DNA of 64,000 nt, taken from contig NZ_CP009831.1 of NCBI RefSeq assembly GCF_000959525.1, positions 1,302,001 through 1,366,000 on the forward strand, given 5' to 3'. Below the pieces are notes generated by a model. The model was not told the origin of the DNA. It saw only the letters and a list, made by a program, of their open reading frames with translations, and made no database searches. Source of the DNA: Burkholderia multivorans ATCC BAA-247. Lineage in GTDB: Bacteria; Pseudomonadota; Gammaproteobacteria; Burkholderiales; Burkholderiaceae. Positions 55,605 through 63,460 of the stretch are shown in pieces. The translations under genes were made by a program, and so were the position numbers. The first letter of the stretch is position 1. Each line of letters starts with the position of its first letter.

Positions 55605-56912
55605 TCACTGCGCAGCCCGCATCCGCGCTGCCACCACGAGCGAAATCAGGCAGCCGGCCGCTAGATAACCGGCGACGAGGTGCCACGAGCCGCCGGCCAG
55701 GCTGACGAGGCCGACCGCGATGAACGGCGTGAACCCGCCGCCGACGACGCTCGCGAACTGGTAGCCGACGCCCGCGCCGCTGTAGCGATACTCGGCGCCG
55801 AACAGTTCGGTGAACAGCGGCTGCTGGACGCTGACGACCATGTCGTGCGCCGCGTTCGCGAGCAGGATCGAGAACAGCACGATCCATACGATCGACCGCG
55901 ACTCGAGCGCGACGAAGAACGGCACCGCCGATGCAAGGCCGATCAGCGCGCCGATCAGATAGATGCGGCGCAGCCCGAAGCGATCGGCGAGCCACGCGAA
56001 GCACGGAATCGTCACGCAGCTCACCGCGCCGACCAGCAGCCCGATGTTCAGGAACAGATCGCGCGACATGCCGAGGTTCGACGTCGAATAGCTGAGCGCG
56101 AACGCGGTGACGATGTACATCGTGAACAGCTCCGCGAGCCGCAGCGCGACGATCAGCAGAAACGCCTTCGGATGACGCGTCAACGCTTCCAGTACGGGCA
56201 GCCGCAGCTTGCGGTGGCCGTGCTCGACCTTCTCGACGAACTCCTGCGACTCGTCCATGCTCTTGCGCACCCACAGCCCGATCAACACCAGCACGATGCT
56301 GAACACGAACGGCAGGCGCCAGCCCCAGGTCTTGAACGCGGCGTCGCCGAGCGTGTGGCTCAGGATCGACACGATGCCGGTGGCGAGCACGAGCCCGACG
56401 CCGTAGCCGACCTGGACGCCGCTGCTGTAGAACGCCTTCTTCTGCTTCGGCGCACTTTCGACGGCCATCAGCGCCGCGCCACCCCATTCGCCGCCGACCG
56501 CGAAGCCCTGGATCGCACGCATCGCGACCAGCAGCACGGGCGCCCACCAGCCGATCGTCGCGAACGTGGGTAGCAGCCCGATCGCGACCGTCGACAGCCC
56601 CATCAGCATCACGGTCAGCACGAGCATTCGCTTGCGGCCGAGCCGGTCGCCGTAATGGCCGAACACGACGCCGCCGAGCGGACGGAACAGGAAGCCGACG
56701 CCGAACGTCGCGAACGCCGCGAGCGTCCCCATCGTCGGACTTACTTTCGGAAAGAACTCGGCGTTGAATACGAGCGCGGCCACAATCCCGTACAGCAGGA
56801 AGTCGTACCAGTCGACGACGGCGCCGACGAAGCTGCCGATCGCGGCCTTGCGGGCCTGGGTGCGTGCCCGGGCGCCGGCAGCGGCGTCGAGGGTGTCGAA
56901 GGTCGGGGTCAT
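55605..56912 (-). CDS. MFS metabolite:H+ symporter (MHS family)
   Basis: 435 residues with twelve membrane segments. AAIGSFVGAVVDWYDFLLYGI, FLFRPLGGVVFGHYGDRLGRKRMLV and GFAVGGEWGGAALMAVE are signatures of MHS carriers (ShiA, KgtP, ProP relatives), which import organic acids with protons. AGGAG precedes ATG 56912. Divergent from 4-hydroxyphenylpyruvate dioxygenase, suggesting uptake of an aromatic or keto acid feeding that enzyme. Confidence 0.88.
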   Translation of the reverse strand: MTPTFDTLDAAAGARARTQARKAAIGSFVGAVVDWYDFLLYGIVAALVFNAEFFPKVSPTMGTLAAFATFGVGFLFRPLGGVVFGHYGDRLGRKRMLVLTVMLMGLSTVAIGLLPTFATIGWWAPVLLVAMRAIQGFAVGGEWGGAALMAVESAPKQKKAFYSSGVQVGYGVGLVLATGIVSILSHTLGDAAFKTWGWRLPFVFSIVLVLIGLWVRKSMDESQEFVEKVEHGHRKLRLPVLEALTRHPKAFLLIVALRLAELFTMYIVTAFALSYSTSNLGMSRDLFLNIGLLVGAVSCVTIPCFAWLADRFGLRRIYLIGALIGLASAVPFFVALESRSIVWIVLFSILLANAAHDMVVSVQQPLFTELFGAEYRYSGAGVGYQFASVVGGGFTPFIAVGLVSLAGGSWHLVAGYLAAGCLISLVVAARMRAAQ

Positions 56913-57266
56913 GTTGATGTCTCCTGGCACGGGCGCATCAGGCTCGCGGGCCGGTGCCGCGCCGATGCTGCATTGAGTCGATGAGTGAACGGAGAATAGG
57001 GCGCGCGCCGCACGCCGGCAATTGGCCGATCGGTCGAGTTGCGCGATTATCGTTCAATTGCGTGCGTTTATCGAACGCTTTTGGGGTTTGCACTGAGCGG
57101 CCCCGGCAGTTGGCCGTTCGGCCAGGGTGTGCCGCCGTGAACGATCTGGTTAAAATCTGCACCATCGAAAGTTCGCCCGGCGCCGGCGGATGTCGGCCGT
57201 CTCGGCGGCCCGACATGCGGTTGCGCCGGGCCTCGTCCCCATAGAATGCATCCCTCGGAGACTGGA
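56913..57266. other. 354-base divergent promoter region, MHS transporter / dioxygenase
   Basis: Contains GCGATTATCG at 57043-57052 followed within 20 bases by a related TTTATCGAACG. The same 10-mer occurs at 53343-53352 before the IclR gene, where it is part of the palindrome GCGAT-T-ATCGC. Otherwise GC-rich with no gene. Confidence 0.45.
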
Positions 57267-58394
57267 ATGTCCGGCAATCCCCATCCACTGTCCAGCGATA
57301 CGCCGCCCGTCGACGATCCGGCCGCCAATCCGCTCGGGATGGCGGGGCTCGAGTTCGTCGAGTTCGCGGCGCCGGTGCCGGACGCGCTCGCGCAGCGTTT
57401 CGAACAGCTCGGCTTCAAGGCGATCGCGCGGCACGTCAGCAAGGCCGTGACGCTGTATCGGCAGGGGCAGATGCATTTCCTGATCAACGCGGAACCGGAC
57501 TCGTTCGCCGCGCGCTACGCCGAGGAATACGGGATGGGCGTCTGCGCGATCGGCATCCGCGTCGCGAATGCGCGGCGGTCGTTCGAACGCGCGATCGAAC
57601 TGGGCGCGTGGGCGTTCGAGGGCGAGCGCGTCGGCGTCGGGGAGCTGAAGATTCCGGCGATCCAGGGCATCGGCGATTCGCATCTGTACTTCGTCGATCG
57701 CTGGCGCGGGCGCAACGGCCAGCGCGGCGGCGTGGGCGACATCTCGATCTTCGACATCGATTTCCGGCCGATCGACATCGCCACCGCGCACACCGATCTC
57801 GATTTCGCGGGCACCGGGCTGCAGCAGGTCGACCATTTCACGCAGACGGTCGGCGCCGGGCGCATGCAGGAGTGGCTCGACTTCTATCACGATCTGCTGC
57901 ACTTCCGCGAGATTCACGAAATCGATGCGCACTGGCACGTGTCCGAGGAGTCGCGCGTGATGGTGTCGCCATGCGGCGCGCTGCGGATTCCGGTGTACGA
58001 GGAAGGCACGCGCCGCACCGAGCTGATGCACGCGTATCTGCCCGACCATCCGGGCGAGGGCGTGCAGCACATCGCGCTCGCGACGGACGACATCGTTGCG
58101 TCGGTCGACGCGTTGCGGGCGAACGGCGTCGAGTTCATCGAGCCGCCCGCGCGCTACTACGACGAGGTGGACCGGCGGTTGCCGGGGCACGGCGTCGATC
58201 TGGACGCGCTACGCCGCCGCGCGGTATTGATCGACGGCGAGATCGGGGAAGACGGCGTGCCGCGGCTGTTCTTCCAGACGTTCGTCAAGCGCCGGCCCGG
58301 CGAAATCTTCTTCGAGATCGTGCAGCGCAAGGGGCATCACGGTTTCGGCGAAGGCAATCTCGCGGCGCTCGCGCGCGCCCGCGACGCAAGCTGA
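57267..58394 (+). CDS. hpd: 4-hydroxyphenylpyruvate dioxygenase
   Basis: 375 residues, two vicinal-oxygen-chelate modules. Iron ligands are visible: first His in QQVDHFTQ (about residue 193), second His in GVQHIALATDDI (about 270), and Glu in GEIFFEIVQRKG (about 353). Converts 4-hydroxyphenylpyruvate to homogentisate in tyrosine degradation. ATG 57267 has GGAG upstream; an earlier in-frame ATG exists without a site. The later steps (homogentisate dioxygenase and others) are not in the window. TyrB at 16115 makes its substrate. Confidence 0.92.
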   Translation: MSGNPHPLSSDTPPVDDPAANPLGMAGLEFVEFAAPVPDALAQRFEQLGFKAIARHVSKAVTLYRQGQMHFLINAEPDSFAARYAEEYGMGVCAIGIRVANARRSFERAIELGAWAFEGERVGVGELKIPAIQGIGDSHLYFVDRWRGRNGQRGGVGDISIFDIDFRPIDIATAHTDLDFAGTGLQQVDHFTQTVGAGRMQEWLDFYHDLLHFREIHEIDAHWHVSEESRVMVSPCGALRIPVYEEGTRRTELMHAYLPDHPGEGVQHIALATDDIVASVDALRANGVEFIEPPARYYDEVDRRLPGHGVDLDALRRRAVLIDGEIGEDGVPRLFFQTFVKRRPGEIFFEIVQRKGHHGFGEGNLAALARARDAS

Positions 58395-58493
58395 ACGCAG
58401 GCGCCGCCTGCTGCGCCCGGCCGGTCGGTCCGGCCTTCCGCGCTTTGCCGATGCGTGTGCGGGCGTGCGGGGAGGCTGCCGCGCCGCGCCGCG

Positions 58494-59828
58494 CTACGCG
58501 GCGATCAGCTTGCGGCTCTGGCGTCGCATGCCGTCGAAGATCGCATCGGCGACATCGGCCGGAAAATCGGCCGGCAGGCGTGCGCCGACTTCGGCAATCA
58601 CCGGTTCCGTGCGCGCCGCGACGGCGGCGAGCGCGGTACGTACGTCGTCGTCGGACAGGCCGACGCGCCGTCCCTGCGCGATCCAGTGGCGCGGCTGGAT
58701 GTCGGCGATCGCGTAGTGACGATTCTTGCCGCTGACGGCCATCGCGAGTCGCGCGCGACGCGGTGCCAGCTGGTTGCGGCGCGTGCCGATGATCGGATGC
58801 GCGGACAGCACGTCGTACAGCGGCGTGCTGCGATACGTGTTGCCGGGCAGAAGCGCGATGCTGAAATTCTTGGCGTGGCCGTCGATCGCCGCGAGTACCC
58901 AGAACACGAGCTGCGCGACGAAGAAGTTCATCCGGTCGCGCGCGGCATCGACCGAATTCGCGAGGATGCCCATGATCGTGTCGATGCCGGGGCCGCCGTC
59001 CGATTCGTATTTCGCGGCCGGCGGCGTGCCGGTCGCCTGGCACATGTCTTCCTGCGGCAGCCGCAGGATCCACGTGCCGTCGCGCGACAGCCGGCGATCG
59101 AAGCGCTCGACGATCAGCACCTTCTGATCGTCGAACTGGCCGATGTCGCAACGCGCGACCGGCAGGCCATAAGCGGCGACGATCTTCGAGCACAGCCACT
59201 CGTTTTCGACGGACGTGCGCATGTCGGCCTGCATGTTGCCGACGCGCCCGAGCGGCAGCTTGAAGATGTGCGTCGTCGGCGTGCTGCCGGACGGCACGAG
59301 CCAGCGGTTGCCGTGACGCAGCAGCGCCGTCTTTTCCTGCGCGCCGGCGATCGACAGCCGCAGGTCGGCCTCGTGTTCCGCATGACCGGGCAACGGCGCG
59401 GCGGTCGACTGGCGCAGCACATCGGCGACCGCCGCGTCGTCGAGCACGGTGCCTTCGATCGTGTCGAGGTCGACCGGCGTTTCGTCGGGCGGCAGCAGTT
59501 GCAGGGCGCCGACGCAGTCGCGGCCGATCGACGCAAGCAGCTCGAACGGCGAGGTCGAGCCGAGCCGGTAGCGTTGCGCGATGCGGCGTCGAATCGGCTG
59601 ACTGTCCGGCAGCAGGTTGTCGAAGTAGCCGGCGACGACCGCGCCGTGATGCGGCTGGTTGCCCGGCGTGAACGGCAAAGACAACGACAGCGGTCGCCCT
59701 TGCGGATCGTCGATCCATGTCGGCAGATAGACGAGGCGCTCGACGCCGCGCCAGACTTCCCAGTAGCCGACCGGGATGCCGTTCATCCATAGATCGAGGC
59801 GATCGTGGCGGGTGGTGCGGACGACCAT
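58494..59828 (-). CDS. hipA: HipA-family serine/threonine kinase toxin
   Basis: 444 residues: N-terminal subdomain with LPFTPGNQPHHGAVVAGYFDNLLPDS, the phosphorylated-loop motif SIAGAQEKTALL, and the C-terminal kinase core with Asp316 and Asn321 (AIDGHAKNFS) and Asp339 (LYDVLS). All catalytic residues are kept, so the kinase should be active. E. coli HipA phosphorylates glutamyl-tRNA synthetase; targets vary in other HipA proteins. Two bases separate it from hipB and GGGAGGAC lies at the end of hipB. Confidence 0.9.
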   Translation of the reverse strand: MVVRTTRHDRLDLWMNGIPVGYWEVWRGVERLVYLPTWIDDPQGRPLSLSLPFTPGNQPHHGAVVAGYFDNLLPDSQPIRRRIAQRYRLGSTSPFELLASIGRDCVGALQLLPPDETPVDLDTIEGTVLDDAAVADVLRQSTAAPLPGHAEHEADLRLSIAGAQEKTALLRHGNRWLVPSGSTPTTHIFKLPLGRVGNMQADMRTSVENEWLCSKIVAAYGLPVARCDIGQFDDQKVLIVERFDRRLSRDGTWILRLPQEDMCQATGTPPAAKYESDGGPGIDTIMGILANSVDAARDRMNFFVAQLVFWVLAAIDGHAKNFSIALLPGNTYRSTPLYDVLSAHPIIGTRRNQLAPRRARLAMAVSGKNRHYAIADIQPRHWIAQGRRVGLSDDDVRTALAAVAARTEPVIAEVGARLPADFPADVADAIFDGMRRQSRKLIAA

Positions 59829-59830
59829 CG

Positions 59831-60316
59831 TTACCAGTCCTCCCGCTTTGCGACGCGGCGTTTGCGCGGCGTGGCGGGCGTCCGTTTGCCGGCGGCGCCG
59901 ACGGGCGTTTTCGCTGCGGGTGCGGTTGCAGCCGTGCCGGCAGCGGCCGGTGCGGACGACGAACGCCGGCGCGCCGGCCGTTTGTTCGGTGCAACCGGTG
60001 CATCGGGGAGGGGCGCGGTGTCGGCCGGTGTCGAGTCGCGTCGGCTATTCGCGCGCGTCCGAGCGTTGGCGGTAGCGGCGGTTTGCGCGACACCGGCCGA
60101 AGCGGCCGGATCGAGCGACAGACGCACGCCGAGCACGTTCAGCACTTTGAAGAGCCGTTCGATGCTGACTGCAGACGGATTCGCTTCGAGCTGCGCGTAC
60201 GTTTGCTGCGTGACGCCGAGGCGGGCCGCGAGTTGCGCCTGCGTGAGCCCGGCCGATTTGCGGAAGCCGACGAGGATCGGGCGCAATTGGGCCAACGTCT
60301 GAACGGGGAAGGACAT
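59831..60316 (-). CDS. hipB: HipB-family antitoxin with long basic C-terminal tail
   Basis: 161 residues: Xre-type helix-turn-helix at about 12-66 (KSAGLTQAQLAARLGVTQQTYAQLEANPSAVSIERLFKVL) and then roughly 80 residues of Ala/Pro/Thr with many Lys/Arg (KRPARRRSSS, KRTPATPRKRRVAKRE). E. coli HipB has only about 88 residues, so the tail is an unusual addition that may bind DNA or the toxin. CGGAG precedes ATG 60316. The four-site repeat upstream is its likely operator. Confidence 0.87.
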   Translation of the reverse strand: MSFPVQTLAQLRPILVGFRKSAGLTQAQLAARLGVTQQTYAQLEANPSAVSIERLFKVLNVLGVRLSLDPAASAGVAQTAATANARTRANSRRDSTPADTAPLPDAPVAPNKRPARRRSSSAPAAAGTAATAPAAKTPVGAAGKRTPATPRKRRVAKREDW

Positions 60317-60330
60317 GGGCGCTCCGGCGA

Positions 60331-60438
60331 AATACAGGCGATCGTTTGTCATCGAAGAATACAGTCTATGGTGTGTATCGGCAAAATACAAACTACAACC
60401 TGTATTCGACAAAAACAAACGATAGCCTGTCAGATCGA
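60331..60438. repeat. Four tandem hipBA operator sites at 27-bp period
   Basis: Half sites occur at 60332/60347 (ATACA, TGTCA), 60359/60374 (ATACA, TGTAT), 60386/60401 (ATACA, TGTAT) and 60413/60428 (AAACA, TGTCA). Each is ACA-N10-TGT and each starts exactly 27 bases after the previous one. The array lies immediately upstream of the hipB ribosome site, so it covers the promoter. E. coli hipBA also has four operators, but with a different sequence. Confidence 0.8.
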
Positions 60439-60779
60439 AGCGCGTGATACGACGAGACGAAACGCCGCGCAACGGTTCGCGGCTGTCCGAGCGACCGTCG
60501 TGGCGTCAGCGAGCCATGGCAACGTCATCGTCGAGTGACGCCTTGCCGGCACCCTCGGCTGCCCAAGCGGACTACGCAAACTGTTGCCGCAGCCGCAGGA
60601 AGTGCCGCTGTTTCGGCGGTATCAAATGAAGAAAAGGAGGGCGGCGACCGGTGCCTTGCTCCGGCTGTCGACAATCGATGCCGTCACCGCCGTGCGATGA
60701 CGGCAGGCGCCGCGCTCGATCCACCGCACCGCCTCGACAGAACGATTCCGCCCGCTCGCCGTCCGTATCGACGTCACGA
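60439..60779. other. 341-base intergenic region
   Basis: Between the hipBA operator array and the end of the CDF gene. I see no gene, terminator or RNA in it. Confidence 0.5.
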
Positions 60780-61439
60780 TCACCGGATCGAACGGCTCGC
60801 CCACGCCGCCAGACCCGGCCAATACGCGCAGGCCCGCCGAACGAAACCCGCGCCGGTCCGGATCACGATCGCGCCGATCGCCAGCGCGGCGAGATCGTCG
60901 ATGCGGCCGAGTCCCACCCACGCCGCACTCATCGCGACCGTCGCGAGCAATGCCGACAACGCGTCGGCGCGCACATGCCAGCCGTTTGCTTCGAGGAGCG
61001 CCGAACCCGTTTCCCGCGCCCTGGCGAGCAGCCACCGCGACAGCGCGACCTTGCCGACGAGCGTCACGACTACCAGTGCCAGCGGCACCGCGCCGGGCGC
61101 TACGCGCGGCGGCGTGTCGAAGTGCGTCGCCGCCTGCCAGATCATTTGCAACCCCATCGCGACGAGCAACGTGCCAAGCCCGGCAAGGGCGATCGGCTCG
61201 AACGTCGGTCGGCGCTCCGGCGGCAGCCGTGCGTCCATGCGGCAGGCGACGAGAAGCAGCGCGTCCGCGGCGAGATCCACCGCGGCGTGAAGCGTGTCGG
61301 CGAGCAGGCCGGATGAGTGCGCCGCCCATCCGGCTATGAGTTCGGTCGCGAGCAACAAGGCGTTGATCGCGAGACCGATGGCGAGGGCGCGGGAAGTGGC
61401 GGTGTGGAGATGAGGCGTGACGCGTGTCGGACGCTGCAT
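60780..61439 (-). CDS. Short cation diffusion facilitator (CDF) transporter lacking the cytoplasmic domain
   Basis: 219 residues, about six membrane segments. Metal-site motifs are intact: LLADTLHAAVDLAAD in helix 2 and GWHVRADALSAL (His-x3-Asp) in helix 5. CDF exporters (zinc, cobalt, iron) are normally near 300 residues with a C-terminal metal-sensing domain that is absent here; the protein ends soon after helix 6. ATG 61439. Truncated CDFs exist and can still transport, so this is probably a real short form. Confidence 0.82.
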   Translation of the reverse strand: MQRPTRVTPHLHTATSRALAIGLAINALLLATELIAGWAAHSSGLLADTLHAAVDLAADALLLVACRMDARLPPERRPTFEPIALAGLGTLLVAMGLQMIWQAATHFDTPPRVAPGAVPLALVVVTLVGKVALSRWLLARARETGSALLEANGWHVRADALSALLATVAMSAAWVGLGRIDDLAALAIGAIVIRTGAGFVRRACAYWPGLAAWASRSIR

Positions 61440-61605
61440 GGCGAATTCGTCTGTCGAATCGGGAGCAGCCTCGAACGCTACCGGCCGATGGTGGCACGCG
61501 CATGACGGAGCGCAGCGAACGACCTGGAACCGGCGCGAAAGGAAGGAGGTGCCATGGCGACGCCGATGCAGACTCGCCACCGCGCGAAGCGGCATAGCGA
61601 ATTTC

Positions 61606-61625
61606 GACATTATAGAAGTAATGTC
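61606..61625. promoter_or_regulatory. Inverted repeat GACATTA-N6-TAATGTC before the KfrA-like gene
   Basis: Perfect 7-bp arms in an AT-rich patch (about 61600-61690) that stands out from the surrounding GC-rich DNA and is probably the promoter. KfrA proteins repress their own genes, so this is the likely operator. An ATG at 61621 lies inside it and is therefore unlikely to be the start codon. Confidence 0.6.
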
Positions 61626-61701
61626 AAATACTGCGCCCGAAATAATTGAAAATCCAACGGATTACGTTATATTATTCACGAAAATCCTCCGCGCACCCGC
61701 C

Positions 61702-62715
61702 ATGTCCGACCTGACTGCCGACGAATCCCGCCTCATCGCCGAAATCGACCGCCTGAAGGCCGCCTTCCCGAAAACCCGCGAGCTTTACCGCGAGGTCTGC
61801 GCGCTGCTGTTCTTCCGTTTCGGCATCACGCCGACTGCGAACCGTCTGTATCAACTCGTCCGCAAAGGCAGCATGAGCACGCCGACGGCCGTACTCGGCG
61901 AGTTCTGGGCCGAATTGAGGGAAAAGAGCCGCGTGCGCATCGAACACCCGGACCTGCCGGCCGACTTGCAGGCCGCCGCCGGAGAATTGGTCGCGACGTT
62001 GTGGAGCCGATCGTCGGCCGATGCGGCCGCCGCGCTCGACGCACTGCGCGCCGAAGTCGAAGCCGAACGGGCAGCGGCCAAGGCCGACGTCGCCGCCTTG
62101 CAGTCGGAGCTGGCCCGCACCGAAACCGCGCTCGAGCAGCGCACGGCCGCGTTGCTCGCGGCACAGGTGAGGATTCAGGAGCTGGAGCAGGCGAGGGCGG
62201 CCGACGACGCCACGCGCCGCGCCCAGCAAGCCGAAATCGAACGCCTGAAGGCCGATAACGCGGAAGGCGATCGCGCGCTCGCCCAGGCGCGCGCCGACTT
62301 CACCGCACAGCTCGATCGGCTGCGCGACGATGCGAGCCGGGCGGAAGAGCGTCTGCGCGCGTCGGAGCGGCGTGCGCTGCAGGAAATCGATCGCGAGCGG
62401 CAGGCGGCCGCACGACTGCAAAAGGAACTCGACGCGACGAACGCGCGCGCCGACGAGCGCGACGCACACCTTCGCCGCGAAATCGGCGCGCTGCAGGCGC
62501 AGCTTGCCGACAGCCAGCATCGCTGCGGCGTACTGGAAGGGCAGCTCGACGGTGCACGCGCTGCACAGGCGGCAAGCGCCGCCGAGCTCGACGCGCTGCG
62601 TGCCGAGCGGGCGTCGGCATCGCGCGTGACGGCGCGTCGCGGCCCGATCCGGCCGATGTCGGCCGTACGCCCCACAAAACCGATCGCGCGGCGCCGCGTG
62701 CCCAAACCGGCATGA
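61702..62715 (+). CDS. KfrA-like DNA-binding coiled-coil protein
   Basis: 337 residues. The N-terminal 100 residues match the KfrA N-terminal DNA-binding domain (SRLIAEIDRLKAAFPKTRELYREVCALLFFRFGITPTANRLYQLVRKGSMSTPTAVLGEFWAELREKSR). Residues 120-310 are an almost continuous Ala/Glu/Arg/Leu coiled coil, and the last 25 are basic and Pro-rich. KfrA is a plasmid-encoded repressor that polymerises along DNA and aids stable inheritance; chromosomal relatives are poorly studied. ATG 61702 is chosen because the upstream AT-rich segment looks like promoter, not coding. Confidence 0.83.
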   Translation: MSDLTADESRLIAEIDRLKAAFPKTRELYREVCALLFFRFGITPTANRLYQLVRKGSMSTPTAVLGEFWAELREKSRVRIEHPDLPADLQAAAGELVATLWSRSSADAAAALDALRAEVEAERAAAKADVAALQSELARTETALEQRTAALLAAQVRIQELEQARAADDATRRAQQAEIERLKADNAEGDRALAQARADFTAQLDRLRDDASRAEERLRASERRALQEIDRERQAAARLQKELDATNARADERDAHLRREIGALQAQLADSQHRCGVLEGQLDGARAAQAASAAELDALRAERASASRVTARRGPIRPMSAVRPTKPIARRRVPKPA

Positions 62716-62801
62716 GGCAAAACAAACCGGAAGCAGGCCAACGTTCACGGCGACCCACAAGGCGACCAAACTGCAACGCGCGAGACGTCGCGCCAACGGC
62801 G

Positions 62802-62818
62802 TTAGACGACCGGTCTAA
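62802..62818. promoter_or_regulatory. TetR operator copy 1, TTAGAC-GACCG-GTCTAA
   Basis: Perfect 6-bp arms, ending 21 bases before the TetR start codon. The same TAGAC-N5-GTCTA core stands at 63501 before the oxidoreductase gene. Resembles the E. coli NemR operator (TAGACC-N4-GGTCTA). Confidence 0.75.
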
Positions 62819-62839
62819 TCGCTGCTACCATACGCCATC

Positions 62840-63460
62840 ATGAATGCATCCTCGGGCGCGGAAGTCCGCCAGCACATCCTCAATATCGCGAAGCCGATCA
62901 TGCTCCACAAGGGGTTTTCGGCGGTCGGGCTGAACGAGATTCTCGCTGCGGCGGGCATCCCGAAGGGGTCGTTCTACCATTACTTCGGCTCGAAGGAGGC
63001 GTTCGGCGAAGCGCTGCTCGAGTCGTATTTCGAAGGCTACCTGGAGCATCTCGACAACCTGTTCGAGCGCCAGCCCGGCACGGGCGCCGAGCGGATGATG
63101 ACGTACTGGAGCAATTGGCTGCACACGCAGTGCGCGGACGATCCCGAGGGCAAGTGCCTCGCGGTGAAGCTGGGCGCGGAAGTGTCCGACCTGTCCGAGG
63201 CGATGCGCGCGGTACTGCGACGCGGCACGAGCCACATCGTCGAACGGCTGGCGGCATGCATCGAGGCCGGCCTCGCGGACGGTTCGCTGCGCGGCATCGA
63301 GGATCCGCCGCACACCGCCGCGCTGCTGTATGAGCTGTGGCTCGGCGCGACGCTGCTGGAGAAGATCCACCGCAACCGCAAGCCGCTCGAAACCGCGATG
63401 GCCGCGACGCGGCAGCTGCTGAACCTGCCGCCGTCCGCGCCCGACGAGGTGCGGACATAA
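62840..63460 (+). CDS. TetR-family regulator, NemR/AcuR-like
   Basis: 206 residues: TetR helix-turn-helix (ILNIAKPIMLHKGFSAVGLNEILAAAGIPKGSFYHYFGSKEAFG) and a C-terminal domain with KCLAVKLGAEVSDLSEAMR, the pattern of NemR/AcuR-type regulators. Cysteines in TQCADDPEGKC could sense electrophiles, as in NemR. Identical palindromes flank it and precede the oxidoreductase, indicating control of itself and of that gene. ATG 62840. Confidence 0.9.
   Translation: MNASSGAEVRQHILNIAKPIMLHKGFSAVGLNEILAAAGIPKGSFYHYFGSKEAFGEALLESYFEGYLEHLDNLFERQPGTGAERMMTYWSNWLHTQCADDPEGKCLAVKLGAEVSDLSEAMRAVLRRGTSHIVERLAACIEAGLADGSLRGIEDPPHTAALLYELWLGATLLEKIHRNRKPLETAMAATRQLLNLPPSAPDEVRT

Follow-up and report, generated by a model that had tools for sequence, protein, structure and literature searches.

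The hipBA operon was the first-known persistence locus, and the geometry of its repressor is known mainly from Escherichia coli. In a 64,000-nucleotide stretch of the Burkholderia multivorans ATCC BAA-247 genome (the window, below), four palindromic repeats stand before a hipB gene at perfectly even intervals, which raises the question of what protein reads such an array and what holds its spacing constant. We argue, with a probability that we would set at roughly 0.8, that the repeats are the autoregulatory operators of a chromosomal hipBA toxin-antitoxin operon, on which HipB and HipA would assemble cooperatively as a repressor at a fixed spacing specific to each HipA/HipB group.

An evenly spaced array upstream of hipB

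A pattern scan of the window placed ACA-N10-TGT at 60334, 60361, 60388, and 60415, with all steps exactly 27 bp and a distance of 16 bp from the array to the hipB ATG (60316, minus strand). The preliminary description of this DNA had correctly named the four repeats and their step; its start coordinates were 2 bases too low. The window contains six ACA-N10-TGT in total, four of them in the array. Because shuffled sequences had a mean of 3.7 and 17 of 100 shuffles reached six or more, this count is unremarkable by itself, and it is the clustering and the exact step that set the array apart. The tandem pair ACA-N10-TGT-N11-ACA-N10-TGT had the array as its sole location in the 6,322,746-bp genome, with three pairs that overlap one another; reading the pattern in reverse gave 0 matches. 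The uniqueness of the tandem pair, together with the clustering and exact step relative to shuffles, ruled out a chance origin. A looser consensus, derived from the array's own sites, matched 4/4 of them. In frame, each site is an 18-bp palindrome, TACAG-N8-CTGTA, with the outer TA present, except that one outer letter, A or T, is missing from site O1 and likewise from O4 (numbered in Table 1).

In 45 of 65 genomes of the genus, a HipB match reached 1e-10 or better. The upstream regions of all 45 hipB loci carried the repeats, four ACA-N10-TGT in 42 and three in 3, and each step was 27 bp; the period that the preliminary description expected orthologous loci to share was thus exact in 45/45 matched loci. 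Step length was unchanged despite differing flanking sequence, and five of the 45, distant paralogues with HipB about 51–56% identical, kept the 27-bp step with different inner site letters. In the 40 four-site orthologues the ten inner bases were mirror-symmetric: O1 agreed better with the reverse complement of O4 (0.83) than with O4 itself (0.53), and O2 better with the reverse complement of O3 (0.58) than with O3 itself (0.28). The centre of the array-wide palindrome lies between O2 and O3 and is retained in 40 genus loci.

Spacing beyond the genus

HipA matches were present in 34 of 369 genomes of a class sample, 47 of 398 of a phylum sample, and 45 of 300 of an order sample. Six matches that were partial or contained stops were left out (G216, G328, G258, G620, G609, and G874). 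We gathered 117 loci besides that of the window, of which 114 had a HipB-like open reading frame before hipA; L080, L128, and L137 were without one. In a search for direct repeats, 91 of the 114 loci reached a score met by at most 2 of 100 shuffles, and the best lags were 27 bp (50 loci), 28 bp (13), 54 bp (12), and 26 bp (8), eight other lags being found once each. A dyad search that assumed no period placed 218 of 251 successive spacings at 26–28 bp, compared with 16 of 624 for the commonest spacing in shuffles; it found at least one such step in 106 of the 114 loci, at least three sites in a row in 79, and at least four in 25. When a regular three-site array was fitted with the period free from 15 to 60 bp, the best fit fell at 26–28 bp in 105/114 loci (27 bp in 75, 28 bp in 18, 26 bp in 12); in the control, with one shuffle per locus, 5 fell at 26 bp and 4 at 27 bp. 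A second set, from a titled collection (79 of 80 loci, L261 being dropped), overlaps the earlier set in species and gave 74/79 loci at 26–28 bp, 70 of these at 27 bp. Since 26–28 bp is the usual hipBA layout in both sets, we ruled out that the array is a peculiarity of the window locus. E. coli-like layouts of two pairs are rare among hipBA loci, with 6 in 114 (L125, L119, L085, L152, L053, and L159). In one distant hipBA locus, L091, about 11–12 units resembling operators follow one another every 27 bp exactly, from about −318 to −4 before hipB.

A second HipA group behaved differently. It comprised 17 distinct loci with an upstream region, L002 (144 bits to the HipA of locus L186) being one of them and the others matching that HipA at 190 bits or more. 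With narrow site widths and no shuffles, 8 of 9 second-group loci had a period of 48–50 bp. When broader sites were allowed and each locus was set against five shuffles, 10 of the 17 distinct loci, L002 among them, fitted 49–50 bp above all shuffles and 7 fell below that mark; two of the ten beat the shuffles by only 1–2 letters, and four or five are near copies. For distant HipA homologues (below 80 bits), no clear array emerged when site widths were narrow; the wider search gave 49–50 bp in L002. Like the window locus, L002 and the L186-like loci combine a helix-turn-helix (HTH) gene, a HipA kinase, and a periodic array of palindromes; they differ from it in their 49–50-bp period and, in L186 and its near kin, in sites of the form TTCCCG-N2-CGGGAA, and the L186-like HipB proteins have no terminal Trp. 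Because the second group tends to 49–50 bp, the period appears to differ between HipA/HipB groups. L002 lies in the same genome as the window (contig C1, 269697–273140) and is its second HipA-like locus; its three palindromes, each of 24 bp, precede the HTH gene in steps of 50 and 49 bp.

Site sequence, HipB, and the HipA tree

Aligned to one frame, almost every site starts with TA and measures 18 bp, the group with the 26-bp period having 17-bp sites instead. Their half-sites went with the recognition helix of HipB: KQ[AS]T occurred mostly with TATCC, RQAT with TATACG, RQET with TATG, SQER with TATTC, SQRV[FYI]ARN with TAGA, and TQQ[TS]YA, the helix of the window's HipB, with TACA. Over 111 loci, half-site similarity followed helix identity at a partial rank correlation of 0.48 once the remainder of HipB was controlled for (0 of 500 permutations reached this value); controlling for the helix, the remainder of HipB gave −0.01. 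HipB residue 40 and half-site position 3 shared 1.00 bit. Covariation with the recognition helix, and not with the rest of the protein, is our strongest argument that HipB reads the repeats. The four repeats, which the preliminary description had taken for HipB operators, are therefore very probably that, as judged from their place before hipB, their conservation in the genus, and this covariation.

We compared spacing and letters on a HipA tree that was built quickly from 94 rows; 18 of 117 HipA rows, those under 380 amino acids, had been excluded. A label combining period and site width required 7 changes on this tree; shuffled labels gave a mean of 25.8 changes, and 0 of 200 shuffles were as low. 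The loci with a 26-bp period and 17-bp sites formed one clade. On 92 rows, the half-site triplet required 40 changes and the period 5. The gap between sites, period minus width, was 9 bp in 76 of 93 rows, 10 bp in 16, and 8 bp in 1, so operator width and period shift together.

The operon, its promoter, and known systems

In the minus-strand operon hipB (ATG 60316) lies directly before hipA (ATG 59828). Both HipA domains, PF07804 and PF13657, scored above cut-off in the full-length kinase, which matched E. coli HipA structures at 1.1e-99; its nearest named relative is that of Burkholderia pseudomultivorans (91%). Residues S150, D309, and D332 of E. coli HipA, which we take to be kinase residues, are identical in the window's HipA and in 101/101 rows. 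Membership in a HipBST module was ruled out, as HipA is a single 444-amino-acid protein with both domains and not the product of separate hipS and hipT genes. HipB matched HipB structures weakly (1.6e-5). At 161 amino acids it is nearly twice as long as E. coli HipB (88) by virtue of a long tail rich in Ala, Pro, Arg, and Lys that ends in Trp, and the length of this tail varies among genus members. The C-terminal residue of HipB was Trp in 87 of 114 loci, Phe in 19, Tyr in 3, and another residue in 5, and Trp in 79/79 loci of the second set; universal conservation of this Trp has been reported (PMC3376134). Neighbouring genes within 55605–63460 encode a major facilitator superfamily transporter, a dioxygenase like 4-hydroxyphenylpyruvate dioxygenase, a cation efflux protein, and a TetR-family regulator, besides the KfrA_N protein of Table 1.

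Table 1. Positions in the window of the array, its sites, and nearby features
Feature	Positions	Strand	Remarks
hipA	58494–59828	minus	444-amino-acid HipA-type Ser/Thr kinase toxin; HipA_C 4.4e-49, Couple_hipA 8.9e-21
hipB	59831–60316	minus	161-amino-acid HTH antitoxin/repressor; HTH_3 3.7e-15; start fixed by orthologues
O1, putative operator	60333–60350	minus	18-bp frame; closest to hipB; ACA-N10-TGT at 60334–60349; kept in genus
Entire array, large imperfect palindrome	60334–60430		inverted repeat; 45-nucleotide arms, 76% complementary, 7 nucleotides between
Putative hipBA promoter	60356–60384	minus	−35-like TTGCCG 60379–60384; 17-bp spacer with most of O2; −10-like TATTCT 60356–60361
O2, putative operator	60360–60377	minus	18-bp frame; between −35-like and −10-like hexamers of the presumed promoter
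O3, putative operator	60387–60404	minus	18-bp frame; pattern and looser consensus
O4, putative operator	60414–60431	minus	18-bp frame; almost reverse complement of O1
KfrA_N protein	61702–62715	plus	plasmid replication region DNA-binding N-terminus (1e-18); coiled-coil-like tail; contig chromosome-sized

The hexamers of the putative promoter are weak, at 4/6 each, and the genus consensus at the −35-like place is TTGACG. A TTGACA-like hexamer stood 7–9 bp before an operator in 43 of the 85 loci having one, a count confounded by hexamers made of operator letters, the window's included. Bound protein would presumably repress by covering the promoter.

E. coli hipBA, according to a review (PMC3920265), has four operators bound cooperatively by HipB, with HipA as co-repressor, and each operator is bent 70 degrees by HipB. 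In K-12 the operators lie at −134, −106, −67, and −39, giving steps of 28, 39, and 28 bp, or two pairs. Both systems have four 18-bp palindromes with outer TA before hipB, an HTH HipB, and a HipA kinase (the HipA proteins are 42% identical); a further likeness is the TTGACT hexamer that directly precedes an operator in K-12. They differ in core triplet, TCC in the E. coli site TATCC-N8-GGATA and CAG in the window, and in the even 27-bp step. The consensus that the preliminary description called unfamiliar is so in its core triplet; it is not a foreign type of site, since TACAG-N8-CTGTA has the E. coli 18-bp frame. That description also put neighbouring dimers on opposite faces of the DNA. With 10.5 bp to a helical turn, a 27-bp step makes about 2.57 turns, roughly opposite on straight DNA as it had said, but such an argument is weak given the bend reported for HipB.

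Caulobacter crescentus hipBA1 and hipBA2 have three operator sites each and hipBA3 none, according to PMC8545095; the likeness drawn for the first two refers to the higher-order complexes of E. coli (PMC7029023). Legionella hipBST resembles the window locus in its evenly spaced sites, three in number, before a hipB-like gene, and differs in the 53-bp gaps between its 18-nucleotide sites, its split HipA (HipS and HipT), and its different repeats (PMC10653801). Our literature search, with most subscription papers outside its reach, returned no statement of a family-wide operator spacing or of a HipB recognition code. As far as these searches show, hipBA operator arrays are known as a kind, and no paper that they covered states the even CAG-core array, the family-wide step, or the code.

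Discussion

We propose that a HipB dimer would bind each palindrome through its recognition helix, as the E. coli dimer does, and that bound HipB would recruit HipA as a co-repressor, also by analogy with E. coli. Neighbouring HipB/HipA units at 27 bp would aid each other's binding through contacts like those of E. coli; the assembled units would cover the promoter, and transcription would resume only when HipB falls. The spacing would then be built into the structure of the complex and constant within any one HipA/HipB group (26–28 bp here) because the face-to-face distance of neighbouring half-sites must suit the contact. That neighbouring units keep a fixed contact distance is the firmer part of this proposal; we are less sure which protein makes the contact.

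Several observations weigh against this proposal. Nine of the 114 loci and five of the 79 did not fit 26–28 bp. The choice of site frame for the site types, covariation, and tree analyses gave extra weight to an outer TA, and the covariation analysis leaves out 10 of 121 rows. A scan of the window's array region with the sigma-70 consensus found no promoter. The window's HipB scored below the NCBIfam HipB cut-offs (38.8 versus 79 bits for NF007271; 42.5 versus 71.65 bits for TIGR03070); because both of these models are narrow, this lowers confidence that the protein is equivalent to E. coli HipB and not that the architecture is of the HipBA type. The E. coli interface positions G22, P86, and D88, presumably such from high-persistence mutants, are not strictly kept (67/101, 37/101, and 50/101 rows; G, P, and E in the window). 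Finally, within 26–28 bp the period tracked HipB with HipA held constant (partial 0.20, 0/300 permutations) and not HipA (0.025, 99/300), which disfavours HipA contacts alone as the setter of the step.

This last result is what HipB alone would produce if its dimers bent the DNA and touched, or preferred a fixed distance, with HipA only stabilizing them, and the 17-bp operators that accompany the 26-bp period point the same way. HipA and HipB are inherited together, however, so the test separates the two only weakly, and in the E. coli structures that Schumacher reportedly described in 2015 it is HipA dimers that link neighbouring units; we regard HipB alone as a possible setter of the step, at somewhat less than even odds. 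A step merely inherited from a single tandem duplication, with too little time to drift, would account for the clustering of periods on the HipA tree, and the units of L091 resemble a tandem expansion. We consider this very improbable, as the triplet needs so many more changes than the period on the same tree and no length change occurred across the 45 genus loci though their flanks differ.

Whether the sites could instead belong to another regulator, HipB being uninvolved, arises because they are known from sequence alone. The array stands directly before hipB in every counted locus and has a single genomic copy, and the helix/half-site covariation over 111 loci ruled out another regulator as their reader, which makes this idea scarcely credible. 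The preliminary description had suggested a regular filament, that is, a continuous HipA-HipB chain over the four sites. Runs of at least three or four sites at 26–28 bp, and the 11–12 units of L091, would suit such a chain; E. coli nevertheless makes do with two pairs separated by 39 bp, and two-pair layouts recur in six loci, and we think the chain unlikely for this locus.

Returning to operators held at a group-specific contact distance, we offer a wider version that we ourselves find doubtful. Spacing may be specific to the group, 26–28 bp in classical HipBA and about 50 bp in the second group; the usual layout may be one isospaced array on which HipB and HipA polymerize into a repressor chain, with E. 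coli atypical; and the helix/half-site code may be readable, sister systems changing the address while the geometry stays fixed. If one spacing does hold across the phylum while the letters change at least 40 times (92-row tree), then spacing is a need of the complex, and it may be E. coli, with its two-pair promoter, that is exceptional. From the helix/half-site code one could predict which of several hipBA modules in one cell have operators in common, and a comparison of the 27-bp with the 50-bp group would serve as a natural experiment on the assembly of toxin-antitoxin complexes on DNA.
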